Origin: Asaia lannensis NBRC 102526
GTDB lineage: Bacteria > Pseudomonadota > Alphaproteobacteria > Acetobacterales > Acetobacteraceae
NCBI RefSeq assembly: GCF_024054035.1
Contig: NZ_JAMXQU010000001.1
Coordinates: forward strand, 372,001-436,000
DNA length: 64,000 bases
Direction: 5' to 3'
Below the pieces are notes generated by a model that worked only from the letters and a program-made list of their open reading frames with translations, was not told the origin of the DNA and searched no databases. Within the stretch, counting starts at the first letter, position 1. Each line of letters begins with the position of its first letter. Of the stretch, positions 33,270 to 57,109 are shown one piece after another. Made by a program: the position numbers and the translations under genes.

Positions 33270-34736
33270 ATGATGCAAAGTCATGAATTTCCGTCAGAGC
33301 TGAAGACCAGCGACCTTCGGCCGGATACTTGGAGCACTTACAATATTTATACGAGTACAAAACCAAGTAATTCTGTAATTTTTGATGGGTGCAATGAAGC
33401 AATGCTTAATGCCCCTGTTGGTGGTACCGGTCAATCGACAACAGGTCTGGTTAATAATCCAATATATTTGTATGGTCGATTTTCTATAAAAATAAACCCG
33501 TCCAATTGCCTTAACACAACAATAATTTATGACGGTAACAAGACTATATTCAGTTATATACCTAATGGTGAAGATCATGGTATTACTTTCTGGATAGATG
33601 GAAACTTTTTTGATATAGCTTCGATCAACAAAAACGAGCCAATATCGATTAGTAATTTGGCTTCGTTCATGGGGCCATACGCACAACATATCGAATTTGA
33701 TGTATGTTATATGGCGGGAACACTGATCGAGACCCCTAAGGGTCAAGTGGCTATCGAAGCATTACAGATTGGGGATGATATCACCATCTTCGAAAACGAT
33801 ATCGGCCAGGTTAGGACTATCCGGGCCATCGGCTGCGGTCAGGCCAACGTCAAGCCCGGCTTGCCGGACGATCTGGCGGGTTGGCCGGTCCGGGTGTGTC
33901 GGGGCGCTCTGGCAGATAATCTGCCGTTCAAGGATATGCTGATCACAGCAGAGCATTGTCTGTATCTCAAGGGGTGCTTTGTACCGGTGCGTATGCTGGT
34001 GAACGGGCAGTCGATCTATTATGACAAGACGATTACCTCGTTCAATTACTACCATATCGAAACCGATCCGCATTCGGTTATCAAGGCAGATGGCGTGTTG
34101 AGCGAGACACTTCTGGATGAAGGTCACGAGCGTCGGCTCTATAACCCAATCCAGTCACTTCCTCAGCGTCTTGCTACGGACTGGTCTCACGCTGCTGCAC
34201 CGCTGAATACGGCACGCGATTTCGTCGAGCCATTGTTCAGGGAATTCCATGAACGTGCCGCAATGCTGGGCATGACCGGACAGGAAGCCCCTTTGCAGGT
34301 GATGTTCGATCATGGGCTGTATCTGATTACCGACAGGGGCGCACATCTCGAAGGTCAGATTGATGCGCGGGGCGTCATGCATTTTCCGCTCCCACATCAG
34401 GTGAAGTCGGTTCATCTGATGAGTCACGCCAGCAGACCCTGCGACGCGCTCGGTCCTTATATGGATGACCGGCGTCTGCTCGGTATTCTGGTCGGCGCGG
34501 TGACCATAGAAGAAGGCGGTGTTTCGACTCCTGTGCGGACTCATCAGGAGGCAGGATCCATGCCGGGTTGGCAGGATGAAAGCGCCGGCAACATGCGATG
34601 GACGAAAGGCAACGCCTTCCTGCCCTTACCCGAGCGTCGGCATGAGGGTGTATCCAGATTGTCGATAGAGGTTCTGGCAGGAGGGCCTTATGTTGTCGTG
34701 ACGTCACTTCCGTCGCTGGTAAGGCACTCTGCGTAA
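33270..34736 (+). CDS. Hint-domain protein with AT-rich N-terminal domain
   Basis: The 488-residue protein divides into three parts. Residues 1-150 have no recognised domain and are rich in Asn, Ile, Ser and Tyr, encoded by AT-rich DNA. From about 150 a Hint_2 (hedgehog/intein) domain starts with VCYMAGTLIETPKGQ and includes ITAEHCLYLKGCFVPVRMLV and YYHIETDPHS. A C-terminal region of about 200 residues ends with GPYMDDRRLLGILVG and FLPLPE; it is shared with the protein at 51362-52945. Hint domains can self-cleave; the cysteine and TxxH motif are present. No classical signal peptide is seen. Its function is unknown. Confidence 0.82.
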   Translation: MMQSHEFPSELKTSDLRPDTWSTYNIYTSTKPSNSVIFDGCNEAMLNAPVGGTGQSTTGLVNNPIYLYGRFSIKINPSNCLNTTIIYDGNKTIFSYIPNGEDHGITFWIDGNFFDIASINKNEPISISNLASFMGPYAQHIEFDVCYMAGTLIETPKGQVAIEALQIGDDITIFENDIGQVRTIRAIGCGQANVKPGLPDDLAGWPVRVCRGALADNLPFKDMLITAEHCLYLKGCFVPVRMLVNGQSIYYDKTITSFNYYHIETDPHSVIKADGVLSETLLDEGHERRLYNPIQSLPQRLATDWSHAAAPLNTARDFVEPLFREFHERAAMLGMTGQEAPLQVMFDHGLYLITDRGAHLEGQIDARGVMHFPLPHQVKSVHLMSHASRPCDALGPYMDDRRLLGILVGAVTIEEGGVSTPVRTHQEAGSMPGWQDESAGNMRWTKGNAFLPLPERRHEGVSRLSIEVLAGGPYVVVTSLPSLVRHSA

Positions 34737-51135: not shown

Positions 51136-51361
51136 GATCTATCCAATCCTATCCGAACACTCGTTTGTGCAGGGCGTAGCTCAAACGCCCGCAGGGATAA
51201 AGCGCTGGTGCCAGAACATGTCGAACCGGATCCGGCAGGGCCGGGATCAATGGCACGAATATGAGCCCGGAGTTCAGATGGAAATCATGATTTGAGGGCG
51301 GGATCTGACGGGTGCTGAACCGGTCCATGCCTGGCGTGCCCAAGGCCATGTCGCAGCGATC

Positions 51362-52945
51362 TCAGTGCGCTGCATTCAGCTGTTCGATCTCCAGTTTCAG
51401 CATTCTGGGCGCGTCATGATCCTGAGGCAGCGGGAGGAGGCCGGATGTGGTGGTCCAGCGTATATGACTGTTCTCAAGGGCACTCCAGCCGCCGAGGAGC
51501 GGAGATGTCAGATGATCGTCAAGACGCCTCGTATCGCCCCGATCGGTGATCTTCACCTGACCGATGAGCACGCCGAGATCGCGCCGGTCATCCACATAGG
51601 GTCCGATAGCCTGATCGGGGCGAGTGGTCTGTGTCGTGATATAGACGTGGTCGATATCCGAGGGGATCATGAATACCGCATAAGGGCCGTTCTGTTCCGT
51701 ACGGGCGATGATCCTGCCGTTCGGGGTTGTCAGCACGAAAGGGGCCTGCGGTGCAGGCTGTTCTTGCTGGACCATATAGCCAAGCTGCCCGGCACGCTCT
51801 GTCAGTTCGCGCCAGATTTTTTCTACCACCGGACGCTCGACCATGAGGGGGTAGGCCCGCTCGCGCGGCGGTTCGGTATCGCTGCTGCCGTGCGTGCCGA
51901 AAAGAAGACTGTTGGTGCCTCGGTAGTAGCTCTCCGCCCTGAGGTTCTCGGCATAGAGCAGGGCGTGATTTTCGACCTCGAGATGGTAGTAGGTATATTC
52001 CCTGATGGTGCGATCGTAGAAAATCGATCCGCCATTGACGAGCATACGCACCGGCACGAGGCTGTTCTGCACAAAGACGCAGTGTTCTGGCGTGACCAGA
52101 AGATCCCTCAACGGCTCTCCCGCCCCGAAGGCATTTCGTCTGATCCGGACAAGAAAGGCTTCGTCGGGTTGTGCGCCACGCAGGGTGATCTTTCGGCTTC
52201 CGGCCCAGATGACGGTCTGCACGCCACGGTCGGTGACGACCGTATCGCCTGTCCCGATGGTTTCGACCGGCCTTTTGCCGGAGGGCGTGAGGATCAGCGT
52301 CCCTTTGGCGAAGCACACCGAAATGATAAGGCCGCTACTGCCATCGCTCGAGAGCTTGTAGCCGGGAATGGAGCCATTGATCACGATGGTTCCGTTGGTT
52401 GTATAGATGATCATGCGCGAGGATTGCAGATCGACGCTGATGATCGTTTTGGGATCGAGATCGGTAATATCGATCGTGAACCCCTGAGCGCTGCCGTTGA
52501 TGGTCAGGTTCTGCAATTCGGCCGTGTTGGTCACGAGTTTTGACCCGGCGGCGATCTGAACAGTCAGGGGGCCTGTATTGAGCACGGTCGCTACCGCCCC
52601 GCCCGAAAGAGAGAGGGTCGAATTGCTTGCTGTGGTGACCTTTGCGCTGCTCCCGATGGTGATCGTTCCGCCCGAAATCGCAAAAGTACCGTTGATACTG
52701 CCGGAATTGATGAGCGATGTTCCTCCGCTCATGGTGAGAGGGCCAAGGCTTCCCCCGGCCAGAATGAGCGTGCCTGAATAGACAGTGACATTGGTGAGCG
52801 TCGATCCGGTGTTGGCGGTTACGCGCCCGCCCCCCACGGTTATGTTGTTGCCCTGCCCACCGCTATTGGCCGTCAGCGTATCGCTCGAGGCAATCACGAC
52901 GTCATTGGCGGCGCTGGTGGTTCCATCGATAACGTAGTCGGTCAT
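51362..52945 (-). CDS. Beta-solenoid plus Hint-domain protein (gene 4 of ACP/KAS operon)
   Basis: The 527-residue protein has an N-terminal repetitive strand-rich region (about 1-130; GSINGTFAISGGTITIGS) like autotransporter passenger repeats, then to residue 210 a less regular stretch. The Hint_2 domain begins with VCFAKGTLILTPSGKRPVE and includes VTPEHCVFVQNSLVPVRML and YYHLEVENHA. The C-terminal part carries GPYVDDRRDLGVLIG and LLPLPQ, shared with the protein at 33270-34736. No signal peptide is apparent. Its ATG overlaps the preceding gene. Self-cleavage or covalent attachment by the Hint domain is possible but not shown. Confidence 0.8.
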   Translation of the reverse strand: MTDYVIDGTTSAANDVVIASSDTLTANSGGQGNNITVGGGRVTANTGSTLTNVTVYSGTLILAGGSLGPLTMSGGTSLINSGSINGTFAISGGTITIGSSAKVTTASNSTLSLSGGAVATVLNTGPLTVQIAAGSKLVTNTAELQNLTINGSAQGFTIDITDLDPKTIISVDLQSSRMIIYTTNGTIVINGSIPGYKLSSDGSSGLIISVCFAKGTLILTPSGKRPVETIGTGDTVVTDRGVQTVIWAGSRKITLRGAQPDEAFLVRIRRNAFGAGEPLRDLLVTPEHCVFVQNSLVPVRMLVNGGSIFYDRTIREYTYYHLEVENHALLYAENLRAESYYRGTNSLLFGTHGSSDTEPPRERAYPLMVERPVVEKIWRELTERAGQLGYMVQQEQPAPQAPFVLTTPNGRIIARTEQNGPYAVFMIPSDIDHVYITTQTTRPDQAIGPYVDDRRDLGVLIGQVKITDRGDTRRLDDHLTSPLLGGWSALENSHIRWTTTSGLLPLPQDHDAPRMLKLEIEQLNAAH

Positions 52946-53799
52946 CGGTATGTCTCCTCGTTGCCGGCGACCAGCGTTGTTTTTTCCTGCATGCCGGAAG
53001 GCATTCGGGAAACCAGCGGTTCACAGGCGAACAGGCTGAGCAATATGCTGCGAAATGCCCTGAAAAAACGCATCGCCCTTAATCCGCCCAGTTCGGCGGC
53101 TGCACGATCATCCATGCGGGACAGATCCTCCAGCGAGATAATCGATGAGCCGATGACCATATGATCTTTCAGAAGCGTCACCGTATAATCGAGTCCTTCA
53201 AGGCGTATGGGCCAGCGTTGGAGGTCGATTTCATCCCACCGGCTTCCCATCATGACGGCGTGCGACAGATCGACACCGCTGAAAGACGCCGAGGCAATGT
53301 CGCAATCGCAGAAACTCGTCTCGTGACAATCGGCACCGCATAAGCGGGTGCCTGCAAGAAGCGCACCCTGGAACTGTGCCCGTGCAAGCGCCGCACCGGA
53401 TAGATTGGCTCCACGCAGGTCGGCACCGACGACTAACGCTGCGATCGCAGAAGCCCCGCAGAGCTGGGCCCCCATAAGGGAGGCATGGGAAAGGTCAGCA
53501 TTTTCGAGATCGGCCCCATAAAGCAGGGCCCCATCGAGCTGGCAGTGACGCAGGTCGGCTCCTCTGAGGCTGCATCGTGTCAGATCGGCATTGCGCAAGT
53601 CGCATCCGGCAAGCGCAGCACCGTCGAAATTGCCACTGACGAGGGGGAGCCCGCGCGCGAGGGCAATCTGCAGGGCATCTGCACGCAGGACGGAATCGGG
53701 CTTCTCTCTTTCTTCTTCATCGAAAGGCAGGCTCCACAGAACCGATGCATTGATTGCGTGTCTGATCGCGTAATTCCAGCTGCTTCTCGACACGATCAA
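52942..53799 (-). CDS. Pentapeptide-repeat protein (gene 3 of ACP/KAS operon)
   Basis: The 285-residue protein has about 25 pentapeptide repeats of the A(D/N)LxX type from residue 58 to 185 (CDLRNADLTRCSLRGADLRH), which fold as a right-handed four-sided solenoid. The N-terminal 55 residues include a helix; the C-terminal 100 carry an amphipathic segment (FFRAFRSILLSLF) that might associate with membrane. It overlaps both neighbours by ATGA. Other pentapeptide proteins bind gyrase or act in secretion systems; no specific role can be given here. Confidence 0.82.
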   Translation of the reverse strand: MIVSRSSWNYAIRHAINASVLWSLPFDEEEREKPDSVLRADALQIALARGLPLVSGNFDGAALAGCDLRNADLTRCSLRGADLRHCQLDGALLYGADLENADLSHASLMGAQLCGASAIAALVVGADLRGANLSGAALARAQFQGALLAGTRLCGADCHETSFCDCDIASASFSGVDLSHAVMMGSRWDEIDLQRWPIRLEGLDYTVTLLKDHMVIGSSIISLEDLSRMDDRAAAELGGLRAMRFFRAFRSILLSLFACEPLVSRMPSGMQEKTTLVAGNEETYR

Positions 53800-55055
53800 A
53801 CCTCCTTCCCGATGGCAAGGCAGCCATTGACCCCGCCGAACCCGAAACTGTTGAGCATGAATGTCGACAAGGGACGCTTCACCGGCTCGACCGGTAGATG
53901 AAAACGACTCAAACGGCTGGGAGTGACCAGATTGGTGTTTGGTGGAACTATGTCATGCCGAAGCGCTTCGAGGCCGAGCACGGCCTGCAATGCGCCGGAT
54001 GCTCCCAGGAGATGACCGGTCAGTCCCTTGCTCGATGACACGAACAGGGGTCGCTCCGCATCGCGGTCGCCGAAAACCTGCTCGATGGCATCGAGTTCCA
54101 CATCGTCTCCGTGCGGGGTGCCGGTCGCATGGGCGTTGATCCAGTCGATATCGTTGGGCTGCCAGCCTGCATCGCGCAGGGCTGCGCGCATCGCGGCAAC
54201 CGGACCAGCGCCCGAGGGCTCCGGGGCGACCAGGTCTCCCGCATCGGCGCTCTGACCGAACCCGACCACTTCGCCCAGAATGGGTGCGTTGCGACGATGT
54301 GCGTGATCGTGCTCTTCGAGTACGACGACAGCGGCCCCTTCAGACAGGACAAAGCCTGTGCGACCGACATCCCATGGGCGGCTGATTTGCCGGGCGGAAA
54401 GGGACTCGTCATGGCCGAGCGCGCGCAAATTGTCGAAAACCTTGATACCGGCTGCGTTGACAGGCGCTTCGGTGCCACCGGCCACCATGATATCGTTATA
54501 TCCGTCCCGTATGGCCCTGAAGGCCTGCCCTATGGTCAGGGTTCCGGTCGCACAGGCGCCGCTTGCACTATAGGCGCCTCCTCTGAAACCGTGCCGTGCC
54601 GATACGGAGGCTGAGCAGCTGTTTGTGAGAACGCCCGGCAGGTAGAAAACGGTTTTCTCCTGCTCCATACGTTTGGCGGCTTCGACAATTGTATTCAGTC
54701 CGCCAATGCCCGAGCCGATGATGACGCCGATATCGCGACGTGCGGCTTCGGAAAGCCTGTCGATCCCGGCCTGTCCGATGGCCTCTTCGGCCGCCACGAT
54801 CCCGAGCAGGATGAAGCGATCCAGTCTGTGACGTTCCTTTCTCGTGAGCAGGCGCTCATAAAGGCCTTCCAGACGATCGGGCACCCGGCCTACGCAGAAC
54901 CGGGTACTGGCCCGGTCGTAAAGAAATCGCTCGATTTCCAGATTTGCGGTGCCGGACAAAAGGGCGTTCCAGTTTTCAGCGGCCCCCAGACCCAGAGGAG
55001 ATACCGCACCCGCACCCGTAATGACCACGCGCCGACGGCTGCGTGCAGGGGTCAT
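53796..55055 (-). CDS. Beta-ketoacyl-ACP synthase (KAS I/II type; gene 2 of operon)
   Basis: The start at 55055 overlaps the ACP stop by ATGA, giving 419 residues; a longer frame into the ACP gene is rejected. It begins RRRVVITGAGAVSPLGLG. The catalytic Cys is in ASGACATGTLTIG, the two histidines in NAHATGTPHGDD and SSSKGLTGHLLGAS, so the C-H-H triad is intact and condensing activity is expected. It would elongate an acyl chain held on the preceding ACP. FabF proper is usually linked to fabD/fabG/acpP, so this looks like a specialised copy. Confidence 0.9.
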   Translation of the reverse strand: MTPARSRRRVVITGAGAVSPLGLGAAENWNALLSGTANLEIERFLYDRASTRFCVGRVPDRLEGLYERLLTRKERHRLDRFILLGIVAAEEAIGQAGIDRLSEAARRDIGVIIGSGIGGLNTIVEAAKRMEQEKTVFYLPGVLTNSCSASVSARHGFRGGAYSASGACATGTLTIGQAFRAIRDGYNDIMVAGGTEAPVNAAGIKVFDNLRALGHDESLSARQISRPWDVGRTGFVLSEGAAVVVLEEHDHAHRRNAPILGEVVGFGQSADAGDLVAPEPSGAGPVAAMRAALRDAGWQPNDIDWINAHATGTPHGDDVELDAIEQVFGDRDAERPLFVSSSKGLTGHLLGASGALQAVLGLEALRHDIVPPNTNLVTPSRLSRFHLPVEPVKRPLSTFMLNSFGFGGVNGCLAIGKEV

Positions 55056-55375
55056 GTTTTTACCATGGGTGCCGTAGCAGGAAGATCCTGCGTGGGGGCG
55101 TATGAGCGTTCCGTAACAATCGCTATGCAATCGGCAACAGTTTTGACGCGGGAAAGGTCGACATTCTGCAGATCGATGTGGAAGGTCTCTTCAAAGGCGA
55201 AGGCGAGCTGTACGACATCGAAACTGTCGGCGCCCAGGGTGTCGGCCAGCTGACTGTCTTTGGGTAGCGCAGCGACATCCTGCCCGAAATGCTCTGCGAT
55301 TATGCGGACCACGGTGTCATCGACAGATACTGTGTGGATGGTGTCTTCATGCATCGCTGGCTTATCGGTTGCCAT
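55052..55375 (-). CDS. Dedicated acyl carrier protein (gene 1 of operon)
   Basis: The 107-residue protein starts at 55375 with AGGAAGG upstream. The acyl-carrier core is VVRIIAEHFGQDVAALPKD, then LGADSFDVVQLAFAFEETF with Ser in the GADSF motif that takes the 4'-phosphopantetheine arm. The N- and C-terminal extensions make it longer than housekeeping AcpP (about 80 residues), a sign of a specialised carrier. Its partner synthase follows with a 4-bp overlap. Confidence 0.9.
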   Translation of the reverse strand: MATDKPAMHEDTIHTVSVDDTVVRIIAEHFGQDVAALPKDSQLADTLGADSFDVVQLAFAFEETFHIDLQNVDLSRVKTVADCIAIVTERSYAPTQDLPATAPMVKT

Positions 55376-55822
55376 GTCGAATCGGCCTTCCTGACGAGGC
55401 TAAATTTTGCGTAACACTATTGTGATATCCCCCGCAGCATAAGACCAGATAATTCTGGCTATAATTTTCTTTAGGGTTCGCAGCTTATGGCGTGCCCTCC
55501 AGGCTGTATCGGTGCCAGATGCCTATCGCGAGGGCGGCCCTGGCCTGACGAAAATCCATGACAATCGATGCCGCCCTGACTGGCCCTCGCGCGCGCAAAG
55601 ATGAGGGGAGACGTTGTCCGTCCGGTCTCTGCCATCACGAATGCCATGTTCCCCGGGCCGATTGCCGGTCGCTGCATGACGTGGTTGCCGCCATGCCACG
55701 AAAACGTCGGTTGCCTTTCGCTGGCGAGAGGAAGAGAATTGACCGATACGCCAGACAGATACGCTCTTCTCCGATACTGTTTTTGCCATAGAACGGCACA
55801 GCGCTCTCTGCGGTAGCGCAGA
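55376..55822. other. Divergent region between the ACP operon and an efflux gene
   Basis: This 447-bp gap must contain the promoter of the four-gene operon on the minus strand. The stretch at 55400-55490 is AT-rich compared with its surroundings and is the likely place. Short open frames show nothing recognisable. No operator or RNA was identified. Confidence 0.5.
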
Positions 55823-57109
55823 ATGCACCGGGTTTCTCTCGTGTCTCGATGGCCAAGACTGAATGGACCCGGTTTCCCCGTGCTGACCTCTTCGCCTCAT
55901 CCTGCCATACGCTTCTCGACAGGGCAGATCATCCTGCTCGGGCTCGTAAGCACGATCGGTCCGATCTCGACCGATATGTATCTCCCGGCTTTTCCACAGC
56001 TCGAACACGATCTGGGGCAGGGGCCCGGCTCGGCACAGCTCACGCTGGCCGCCTGGTTTATCGGTCTGTCCATCGGTCAGTTCTGTCTGGGTCCCCTGTC
56101 GGACCGTTTCGGGCGACACAAGCCCATGGTGGTGGGGCTGGCCATTTATGTCGTCGCCACGATCGCTCTGGCGACGACCAGTTCATACTGGTCCTTCTGT
56201 CTGCTTCGTCTGGTGGCGGCTCTGGGGGGGGCCATCACCAGCGTCATTCCGCGGGCCATCGTGCGCGATGTGGCCACAGGGCACGAGGCGGTACGTCTCA
56301 TGTCCCAGCTCACACTCGTTTTCGGCGTGGGACCTATACTGGCTCCGACGCTTGGAAGCGTTTTTCTGGCTTTTGGAAGCTGGCGTCTGATCTTCTGGGC
56401 AGGTGCCGTGGCAGCCGCCTTGCTGGCGGGGCTGTGGCTTGCGGTGATGCCGGAAACCCTGCCGGTGGAACGGCGCTATGCCCTGCCGCCGGTGGAAATC
56501 CTGCGCCGTTATGTCAGCCTCGTGCGTGAGCCGGTCTTCATGTCCTCTGCCACGCTGTCGAGTTTCAGCACTTTCGTGATGTTTGCCTATCTGTCGAACG
56601 CACCGCTTCTGTTCGAGCATCTGCTCGGTTTTACCCCGCGCGCCTTTGCCATTTTCTTCGGCATCAATGCGGGCGGGTTCATTCTGGCCACGCAGATCAA
56701 TGGCAGACTCTCGCATAAATTCGCTTTTACGTCGGTCATGCAATACGGGCTGGCCGCCTGTCTCGTTTCAGGATTGATCCTGCTGGCCGTGAGTCTCAGC
56801 CATGTTGTGGGGCAGAATGATCCCTGGCCTTTATGCGCCCTGATCATCACCACCACATTCACGCTTGGCTTTATCGGCCCCAATGCCAATGTGCTGGCAC
56901 TGACCCATCATGGGCATCAGGCAGGGGCAGCATCGGCGCTGCTCGGCACCATGGCCTTTGCCATCGGCGGTTCGAGCGGCATTCTCATGGCATTATTGCC
57001 ACCGACACGGCTCAGTTCGACGGCTTTCGGTATGCTTGCCGGTATTTGCGGCATGGTGCTCTGCAATTTCTGGCGCCGTGCCGCCGAGAAACGTCAGAAA
57101 AACACCTGA
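55823..57109 (+). CDS. Bcr/CflA-type multidrug efflux MFS transporter
   Basis: About 428 residues and twelve membrane helices. The family motif STDMYLPAFPQLEHDL is at about residue 50, GPLSDRFGRHKP near 95, and VIPRAIVRDV near 145. These pumps expel drugs such as bicyclomycin, or sugars and amino acids, using the proton gradient. The exact start is uncertain; GTG at 55880 is possible, but no ribosome site is clear for either. Convergent with the AroE-like gene. Confidence 0.88.
   Translation: MHRVSLVSRWPRLNGPGFPVLTSSPHPAIRFSTGQIILLGLVSTIGPISTDMYLPAFPQLEHDLGQGPGSAQLTLAAWFIGLSIGQFCLGPLSDRFGRHKPMVVGLAIYVVATIALATTSSYWSFCLLRLVAALGGAITSVIPRAIVRDVATGHEAVRLMSQLTLVFGVGPILAPTLGSVFLAFGSWRLIFWAGAVAAALLAGLWLAVMPETLPVERRYALPPVEILRRYVSLVREPVFMSSATLSSFSTFVMFAYLSNAPLLFEHLLGFTPRAFAIFFGINAGGFILATQINGRLSHKFAFTSVMQYGLAACLVSGLILLAVSLSHVVGQNDPWPLCALIITTTFTLGFIGPNANVLALTHHGHQAGAASALLGTMAFAIGGSSGILMALLPPTRLSSTAFGMLAGICGMVLCNFWRRAAEKRQKNT

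Follow-up and report, generated by a model that had tools for sequence, protein, structure and literature searches.

Four consecutive genes on the minus strand of the window, the 64,000-nt stretch of Asaia lannensis DNA that was analyzed, encode an acyl carrier protein (ACP), a beta-ketoacyl-ACP synthase (KAS), a pentapeptide-repeat protein (PRP) and a Hint protein. An earlier note had described these genes as a four-gene unit, and both the order of the open reading frames and the Pfam families of the products agree with that description. The features are as follows, with positions counted from the start of the window:

55052..55375, minus strand: ACP gene (107 aa); DSF attachment motif with Ser51; PP-binding domain PF00550 (Pfam, 8.6e-8)
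53796..55055, minus strand: FabF-type KAS gene (419 aa); C168-H309-H348 and K343; assigned by Pfam and NF005589
52942..53793, minus strand: PRP gene; PF00805 (1.3e-28); short N-terminal domain, solenoid and C-terminal domain
51362..52945, minus strand: gene for the Hint protein (527 aa), consisting of an adhesin-type beta-solenoid, a Hint_2 domain (PF13403, 8.6e-38) and a C-terminal domain
52331..52945, minus strand: solenoid part of the Hint protein (residues 1-205), with likeness to the TibA and Antigen 43 passengers
51917..52330, minus strand: Hint_2 domain (residues ~206-343; Pfam match 210-343), with Cys211 and T285-P-E-H288
51365..51916, minus strand: C-terminal domain of the Hint protein (residues 344-527), from an alignment of module Hint proteins; pLDDT mostly <60
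51212..55830, no strand: interval between ugd and an MFS gene in which the module lies; no module there in 8/8 other Asaia genomes

The chief argument first offered for a unit was a run of three 4-bp ATGA overlaps. Those at 55052-55055 and 52942-52945 are present, while the third, at 53796-53799, reads TTGA. This TTG start of the PRP gene (53799) lies only 2 nt past an AAGGAGG sequence, whereas 7 nt separate the same AAGGAGG from a GTG at 53793; the PRP would have 285 aa from the TTG and 283 aa from the GTG. Given this spacing, GTG 53793 is the likely start, and the KAS/PRP junction is likely a 2-nt gap with no overlap. Junctions in relatives were taken from open reading frame coordinates, using the first start codon. 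The ACP/KAS overlap is the only one kept among them, being found in 4/4 loci including the window. The KAS and PRP genes are separated by gaps of 16, 20 and 23 nt at three of the four other junctions, with a 4-bp overlap at the fourth (G006), and the PRP and Hint genes by 27-155 nt in four of five cases, the fifth varying with the start chosen. The argument from three ATGA overlaps is weakened by these data. Moreover, ATGA overlaps alone are frequent in bacterial operons, and co-conservation of the genes is therefore the stronger evidence for a module.

The KAS matches both halves of the ketoacyl-synthase family in Pfam (N-terminal, 1e-42; C-terminal, 1.6e-32) and the FabF-type model NF005589 above its cut-off (4.5e-118). 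Its match to the TIGR03150 fabF equivalog (1.1e-119, 399.8 bits) is under the cut-off of 493.75, which does not class it as a housekeeping FabF. The claim of an intact C-H-H triad holds: C168, H309 and H348 are present in a FabF-type fold, together with K343, and all four residues are invariant in an alignment of four module KAS proteins. In a phylogenetic tree, the module KAS proteins are set apart from six housekeeping FabF proteins of the same genomes (support 95/100); the row for the window carried a long-branch warning, and this tree does not settle the order of the window relative to G006, G008 and G078. The ACP is one of seven PP-binding matches genome-wide, and its ADSFD motif, serine included, is identical in 4/4 aligned module ACPs.

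The catalytic residues of the Hint protein, Cys211 together with T285 and H288 of a TxxH motif, are invariant across five aligned module Hint proteins. TxxH is also a motif of the Hedgehog Hint domain. Inspection of the alignment by eye found no His-Asn at the end of the Hint_2 domain in the module proteins, and the residue preceding the cysteine is Val, Ala or Ser, the Gly of Hedgehog being missing. The solenoid profile resembles the passengers of TibA (7.3e-5) and Antigen 43 (0.0075), which are self-associating autotransporter passengers. A structural model built from a 3-row alignment has a mean pLDDT of 56.6, with only the solenoid usable: a beta-solenoid is confidently predicted at residues ~20-140, and the Hint and C-terminal parts are of low confidence. 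A Foldseek search with this model returned nothing at E 0.001, the list being headed by an intein together with an intein-like domain from bacteria, and a scan of viral sequences using the Hint alignment yielded three weak, fragmentary matches. The module Hint proteins (six, plus one orphan) form a single clade (100/99) apart from 30 other Hint_2 proteins. Within the Hint tree, the window falls outside the group of G006/G008 and G078 (98/90), contrary to genus kinship, which suggests that the module was transferred.

The PRP was modeled with a mean pLDDT of 73. A profile of its C-terminal domain matched one of 385 class genomes, that of the window itself. Searches with the PRP as a whole were dominated by generic pentapeptide repeats; these made up nearly all of the matches in a protein search of 60 relatives (matches in 27) and most of those in a scan of a contig collection, where at least one true relative was among the matches listed.

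A sample of 397 family genomes was screened for the PRP at a threshold of E 1e-30. All four carriers, three Asaia and one member of a second genus, have the ACP, KAS, PRP and Hint genes together and in the same order, and a fifth genome retains decayed remnants of the module genes, also together. Beyond these, no carrier turned up among 397 genomes sampled from the family and 395 from the order. Modules lie at three different chromosomal sites, and all eight other Asaia genomes have, at the site used in the window, 329-1128 bp with none of the four genes. An extra, fifth gene in G006 and G008 was considered as a degenerate Hint gene, which is not claimed (hhalign probability 10.8%). As a control, up to 10 kb on each side of 79 other pentapeptide loci was searched at 1e-5, and 0/79 had a KAS, ACP or Hint match nearby. 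Chance adjacency is ruled out because the grouping recurs at three sites and the control loci lack it.

In the second genus, the carrier is apparently a psyllid symbiont with a reduced genome, and the module is amplified to one ACP, two KAS, six PRP and three Hint genes. This genus also has a lone module-type Hint gene (L217). There are two PRPs for each of the three Hint genes, and the KAS and ACP genes are common to them, pointing to the PRP and Hint protein as a specific pair. Comparison of Hint 1 and Hint 2 of this genus showed that the C-terminal part is near-identical (91-100% DNA identity per 90-base step), and that the two share just half or so of their solenoid DNA.

The co-occurrence in one order that the earlier note had proposed to look for was thus found in all PRP carriers and, with recurrence at three sites and joint remnants in a fifth genome, supports its claim of a single pathway. 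Separation of the genes in relatives, or a lack of co-conservation of the PRP and Hint genes with the ACP-KAS pair, which the note had named as counter-evidence, is absent except for the orphan Hint gene. As judged from the sequences, the KAS and Hint proteins are module-specific lineages, and all four genes are co-inherited with their catalytic residues retained. The four-gene module is self-contained; it has changed sites and has probably crossed from one genus to another.

A second, independent tie of Hint proteins to acyl-chain synthesis comes from another locus. In 9/9 Asaia genomes, a different pair of Hint_2 genes lies directly upstream, on the same strand, of genes for an AMP-binding enzyme and a reducing type I polyketide synthase (PKS) with KS-AT-DH-ER-KR-ACP domains. 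A DNA-level search of the genome of the window picked up a KAS relative next to one tandem pair of Hint genes, at what proved to be this locus, and 17 of 19 other Hint_2 places had no ACP, KAS or PRP relative within the stretches compared. Like the module Hint proteins, the Hint proteins of the PKS locus and the other Asaia Hint_2 solenoid proteins have the Hint_2 domain and the C-terminal region, and at the PKS locus they are likewise joined with KS and ACP domains. Unlike the module proteins, the other Asaia Hint_2 proteins fall outside the module Hint clade, and the PKS locus differs from the module in having a multidomain synthase, in having no PRP in the stretches tested, and in being fixed in the genus.

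We tentatively favor, at somewhat less than even chances, a model in which the adhesin-like Hint protein, partnered by the PRP, receives an acyl chain made by the ACP-KAS pair. The ACP and KAS, aided by cellular FabD, FabG, FabZ and FabI, would build a chain separate from bulk lipid synthesis, and its acyl group would then be put to use on the Hint protein with its adhesin-like beta-solenoid. By one route, the thioester of the Hint cysteine would lead to an acyl group on the new C-terminus of the solenoid, if the chain has a nucleophile such as a 3-hydroxyl; by another, the acyl group would be placed on a side chain of the Hint protein. The PRP, a solenoid too, would be a partner or chaperone specific to its own Hint protein. 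The pathway would yield an adhesin, lipid-modified and either displayed on the surface or secreted, that might serve in association with insects or plants. The chemical model in the earlier note, which drew on the thioester common to Hint proteins and ACPs, has a gap: the Hint thioester and the acyl-ACP thioester are both electrophiles, and a nucleophile is therefore required, such as a 3-hydroxyacyl group or a free phosphopantetheine thiol.

Use of an acyl chain on the Hint protein is consistent with the co-inheritance of the genes, the kept catalytic residues, the distinct Hint and KAS lineages and the independent link at the PKS locus. Several observations argue against it: the module has no acyltransferase and no secretion gene, most other Hint_2 places lack ACP, KAS or PRP relatives, the second genus has the orphan Hint gene, and the Gly that precedes the cysteine in Hedgehog is replaced by Val, Ala or Ser in the module Hint proteins. 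The model also does not account for export: inspection by eye recognized neither a signal peptide nor a barrel domain, and the type VI secretion system (T6SS) sheath gene (TssC/VipB, PF05943) was found in 0/6 genomes, with a positive E. coli control. No thioesterase domain is listed in the PKS of the Hint-Hint locus.

Hedgehog proteins, as outlined in PMC5874633, consist of a displayed N-terminal domain, a Hint domain and a further C-terminal region. The module Hint protein resembles them in having an N-terminal domain suited to display, a Hint domain with Cys and TxxH, a C-terminal region and no C-terminal His-Asn. It differs in belonging to the bacterial Hint_2 family and in lacking the Gly before the cysteine, and an adduct-recognition role of its C-terminal domain is putative. 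A bacterial counterpart of Hedgehog lipidation is conceivable but improbable; here, a chain from the ACP-KAS pair, or from an AMP-binding enzyme and PKS, would supply the nucleophile that resolves the Hint thioester, the solenoid would be freed with a C-terminal lipid, the PRP would play the part of a template or a chaperone, and the module in its four-gene form would be mobile among acetic acid bacteria.

An unlikely alternative is a lipid branch in which the ACP-KAS pair makes an unusual fatty acid for an envelope lipid or polysaccharide, and the PRP and Hint genes are merely co-regulated in the same niche. NodF and NodE are a known ACP and FabF-like KAS pair that makes a special acyl chain. 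The module resembles them in its dedicated ACP-KAS pair, with an intact triad and a 4-bp overlap in 4/4 loci, and ugd lies beside the module in the window, with a phosphoglucomutase gene near the module in G006 and G008 (from reading of translations). However, the module has no NodA-like acyltransferase and is tied instead to a PRP and a Hint protein; no acyltransferase or lipid gene is among the four Pfam-scanned genes or was seen by eye inside the modules of relatives, although an acyltransferase encoded elsewhere could act in trans. Moreover, ugd is retained in the eight Asaia genomes without a module at this site, and the Hint clade and PRP pairs are bound to the module.

PRPs act as resistance genes in biosynthetic operons such as the speirobactin operon, as outlined in PMC12406682. 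By analogy, the ACP-KAS pair might produce or tailor a toxic metabolite, aimed at topoisomerase or at some other target, with the PRP protecting the cell as AlbG, McbG and MfpA/Qnr do and the Hint protein as a linked adhesin or delivery protein. MfpA, QnrB1 and a McbG-like protein are among the solved structures that match the PRP, those matching by fold include MfpA, QnrB1 and AlbG (2xt2), and the module PRP shares with these proteins a pentapeptide solenoid in what may be a biosynthetic locus. However, the top matches are designed or natural generic pentapeptide solenoids, and the module PRP differs from the resistance proteins in its extra end domains, its co-duplication with the Hint gene and the lack of a uniform DNA-like charge; net charges of nine PRP solenoids range from -9 to +1, leaving a Qnr-like DNA mimic a weak candidate. 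Genes for an NRPS, a PKS, export or tailoring are likewise missing from the module, and duplication tracks the Hint gene (two PRPs each), not the KAS. This alternative is distinctly unlikely.

T6SS accessory loci, as outlined in PMC13373197 and PMC11883445, employ the DUF2169 protein TvpA, the pentapeptide protein TvpB and the thiolase-like PRK06147 protein TvpD for spikes. These small conserved clusters resemble the module in that a PRP or KAS-fold protein serves a secreted protein, and by analogy the module KAS and PRP might be non-enzymatic, stabilizing or loading the secreted solenoid protein. In the systems outlined there, TvpD and TvpB mark different classes, whereas the module KAS is FabF-type, with its own ACP and retained catalytic residues, and matches PRK06147 far more weakly (4.8e-9; 35.9 bits, cut-off 342) than NF005589. 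TssC is absent from all six genomes, and Pfam found no DUF2169, DUF4150/PAAR or VgrG domain in the four window proteins. Membership of the Tvp systems proper is ruled out on these grounds, and a looser Tvp-like chaperone set is very improbable. The least probable alternative, with only a slight chance, is a polymorphic competition locus in which the PRPs would confer immunity to a secreted, toxin-like Hint protein; two diverging PRPs per Hint gene, and Hint 1 and Hint 2 differing mainly in the solenoid, would suit it, but it is the N-terminal solenoid that varies and not a C-terminal toxin domain, Pfam gave no toxin domain, PADLOC gave 0 matches for the four proteins at 0.01 (no known anti-phage defense system), and the ACP and KAS are left unexplained.

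The earlier note knew of no described system with these four families; among the papers listed by literature searches there was likewise none, nor any joining at least three of them. The novelty lies in the gene set; the mechanism is putative. If the acyl chain goes onto the Hint protein, the module would represent a bacterial lipidation route parallel to that of Hedgehog, and would provide a function for some orphan Hint_2 proteins, of which many are in acetic acid bacteria. The Hint-Hint-AMP-binding-PKS locus offers a second place where the idea of Hint acylation is testable. With an amplified module in the reduced genome of an apparent psyllid symbiont, a role for the module in association with insects can be asked.

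Four consecutive genes on the minus strand of the window, running from 55375 to 51362, bring together the acyl carrier protein (ACP), condensing enzyme (KAS), pentapeptide-repeat protein (PRP) and Hint families that the earlier note had placed in one run:

ACP: minus strand, first gene, 107 aa.
FabF-type ketoacyl-ACP synthase (KAS): minus strand, second gene, 419 aa.
PRP: minus strand, third gene, 283 aa counted from the likely GTG start.
Hint protein: minus strand, fourth gene, 527 aa; adhesin-like beta-solenoid, Hint_2 domain (PF13403) and C-terminal domain.

ATGA overlaps had been described at all three junctions; two are true ATGA, but the KAS/PRP junction reads TTGA. The better choice of PRP start is likely the GTG at 53793, which has AAGGAGG 7 nt upstream. 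The sole minus-strand terminator-like match in a terminator scan sits within the Hint gene. The module has a G+C content of 59.3%, similar to its surroundings, in a genome of 3.22 Mb on 27 contigs.

The module at the window site is an insertion. All eight other Asaia genomes have 329-1128 bp between the MFS gene and ugd, with none of the four genes in this stretch. Six of the eight carry mutually similar DNA there, unlike the module; two have only ~330 bp. Two of the eight stretches were inspected, and each contains an unrelated ORF of ~180-215 aa. The ugd-MFS interval (window 51212-55830; L185-L192 in the other genomes) is a variable spot among Asaia.

The same four families occur in the same order in two other Asaia genomes (G006, G008) and in a genome of a second genus (G078), apparently Ca. 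Kirkpatrickella diaphorinae (CP107052), described as an uncultivated endosymbiont of Diaphorina citri (PMC11493185). The module thus occupies three different sites (window; G006/G008; G078), with neighbours at the latter two named by reading translations. In G008 (L038), ACP, KAS, PRP and Hint genes are followed by a fifth gene, and the module lies between a phosphoglucomutase gene, with one extra ORF between, and cytochrome b561 and katG genes. G006 (L039) has the same order and neighbours without the extra ORF, and its KAS and Hint frames are broken in the assembly, through error or decay. G078 carries ACP-KAS-PRP-PRP-Hint, KAS-PRP-PRP-Hint and PRP-PRP-Hint, all within ~15 kb. The fifth gene, of ~259 aa, lies 3' of the Hint gene in G008 (L038:3499-4278) and G006 (L039:5853-6629) and overlaps it by 4 bp in G008; the G008 copy has no Pfam match and includes a weakly Hint-like stretch. 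In G157, a sister genome of G078 in the second genus, the module (L203) is decaying: KAS is down to a remnant of ~49 codons, and PRP and Hint survive as fragments spread over several frames. The ACP frame (92% identity) is still intact, which may reflect retained use of the ACP or recent loss.

In the samples searched, the module is found in few genomes. Among 397 family genomes, four matched the PRP profile at 1e-30 (the window's own genome G000, G006, G008, G078); among 395 order genomes, three matched it (G000, G078, G157). These two samples overlap, and both were drawn from larger groups. The PRP C-terminal domain alone matched only the window's own genome among 385 class genomes, a sample evidently without G006, G008 and G078. 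The module KAS profile at 1e-135 matched 2 of 150 order genomes (G000, G078). When KAS relatives were sought at 1e-30 in six genomes (G000, the Asaia genomes G005, G006 and G008, G078, G157), each had one housekeeping FabF, with a module KAS in addition in G000, G006, G008 and G078, and one more, distant KAS in G006.

The intact Cys-His-His triad claimed for the KAS held up: Cys168, His309 and His348, together with Lys343, are invariant in an alignment of four module KAS. The window ACP shares just 27-31% identity with the other module ACPs aligned, yet the motif ADSFD is the same in all four. A tree splits the module KAS (five rows, of which one is truncated) from six FabF with 95/100 support; one long-branched G006 KAS lands on the module side, and the program gives a long-branch warning. 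Residues 145-147 (window 54615-54623) are an invariant Asn-Ser-Cys in module KAS, giving them a second Cys at 147; the six FabF have Asn-Leu-Ile at this place. The difference could mark another kind of substrate pocket.

Cys211, T285 and H288 are invariant in an alignment of five module Hint proteins, and a profile of the solenoid has matches in the passengers of TibA and Antigen 43. Conservation is strongest in the Hint domain: between window and G008 it shows 61% identity, whereas the solenoid has 43% and the C-terminal part 32%. A Hint_2 tree was built from 37 proteins (six module, 18 others from the window genome, including window 33270-34736, and 13 from relatives), and its bootstrap had not fully settled. 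In it, the six module Hints and one G078 orphan form one clade (100/99) apart from the remaining 30; a clade of the six alone is rejected (p-AU 6e-65). Judged by sequence, the Hint and KAS members are module-specific. The orphan (L217:1231-2958) has no adjoining PRP, since all six G078 PRP matches sit in the module. G078 Hint 1 (L047:12047-13675) and Hint 2 (L048:4042-5667) share 91-100% DNA identity per 90-base step over roughly the last quarter and beyond it as far as a terminator-like hairpin. Across most of the solenoid the figure drops to 47-57%, a mosaic pattern suggestive of recombination or gene conversion.

The window genome has 20 Hint_2 matches above cut-off, one of them a second protein in the window (33270-34736, plus strand); the 11 Asaia and second-genus genomes counted have 9 to 27 apiece. 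A DNA-level search (E 0.01) around the other 19 places, with the window ACP, KAS and PRP as queries and covering 20 kb of the window plus 15 stretches elsewhere, each 7.8-19.5 kb long, found no ACP or PRP relatives and one KAS relative, adjoining a tandem Hint pair:

L072:8240-14755, L230:783-8690 (G000 contig C5, ~213,200-226,200): Hint-Hint-AMP-binding-PKS locus.

Two genes come directly after the pair on its strand, at gaps of 78 and 90 nt: one for an AMP-binding enzyme (490 aa, 1.5e-15), the other for a 2114-aa reducing type I PKS. The synthase combines ketosynthase, acyltransferase, dehydratase, enoylreductase-like, ketoreductase and carrier domains, and its domain list has no thioesterase. 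This order is kept in 9/9 Asaia genomes, with the synthase matched as pieces in several frames in G006 and G007. Together with the module, this locus means that Asaia Hint_2 genes adjoin acyl-building enzymes in two unlike settings.

In the largely open-access literature searched, no paper was found that joins a pentapeptide repeat to a Hint domain or a Hint domain to Acetobacteraceae, nothing relevant stood among the PRP/ACP/KAS matches listed, and no counterpart of the gene set emerged, in agreement with the earlier note. The nearest described parallel is the T6SS Tvp accessory set (PMC13373197, PMC11883445); the module is not a member, differing in all three of T6SS, DUF2169 and that set's own thiolase protein type.

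The module is a real, co-inherited, mobile four-gene unit, and the grouping of its genes is almost certainly functional. Because G078 has two PRPs per Hint and three Hints that share two KAS and one ACP, we infer that PRP and Hint form a specific pair, with ACP-KAS as a shared enzyme set. Lipid modification of the Hint protein, in which a dedicated acyl chain would be applied to it, is our leading guess at the mechanism, a tentative one whose chances we put somewhat below even.
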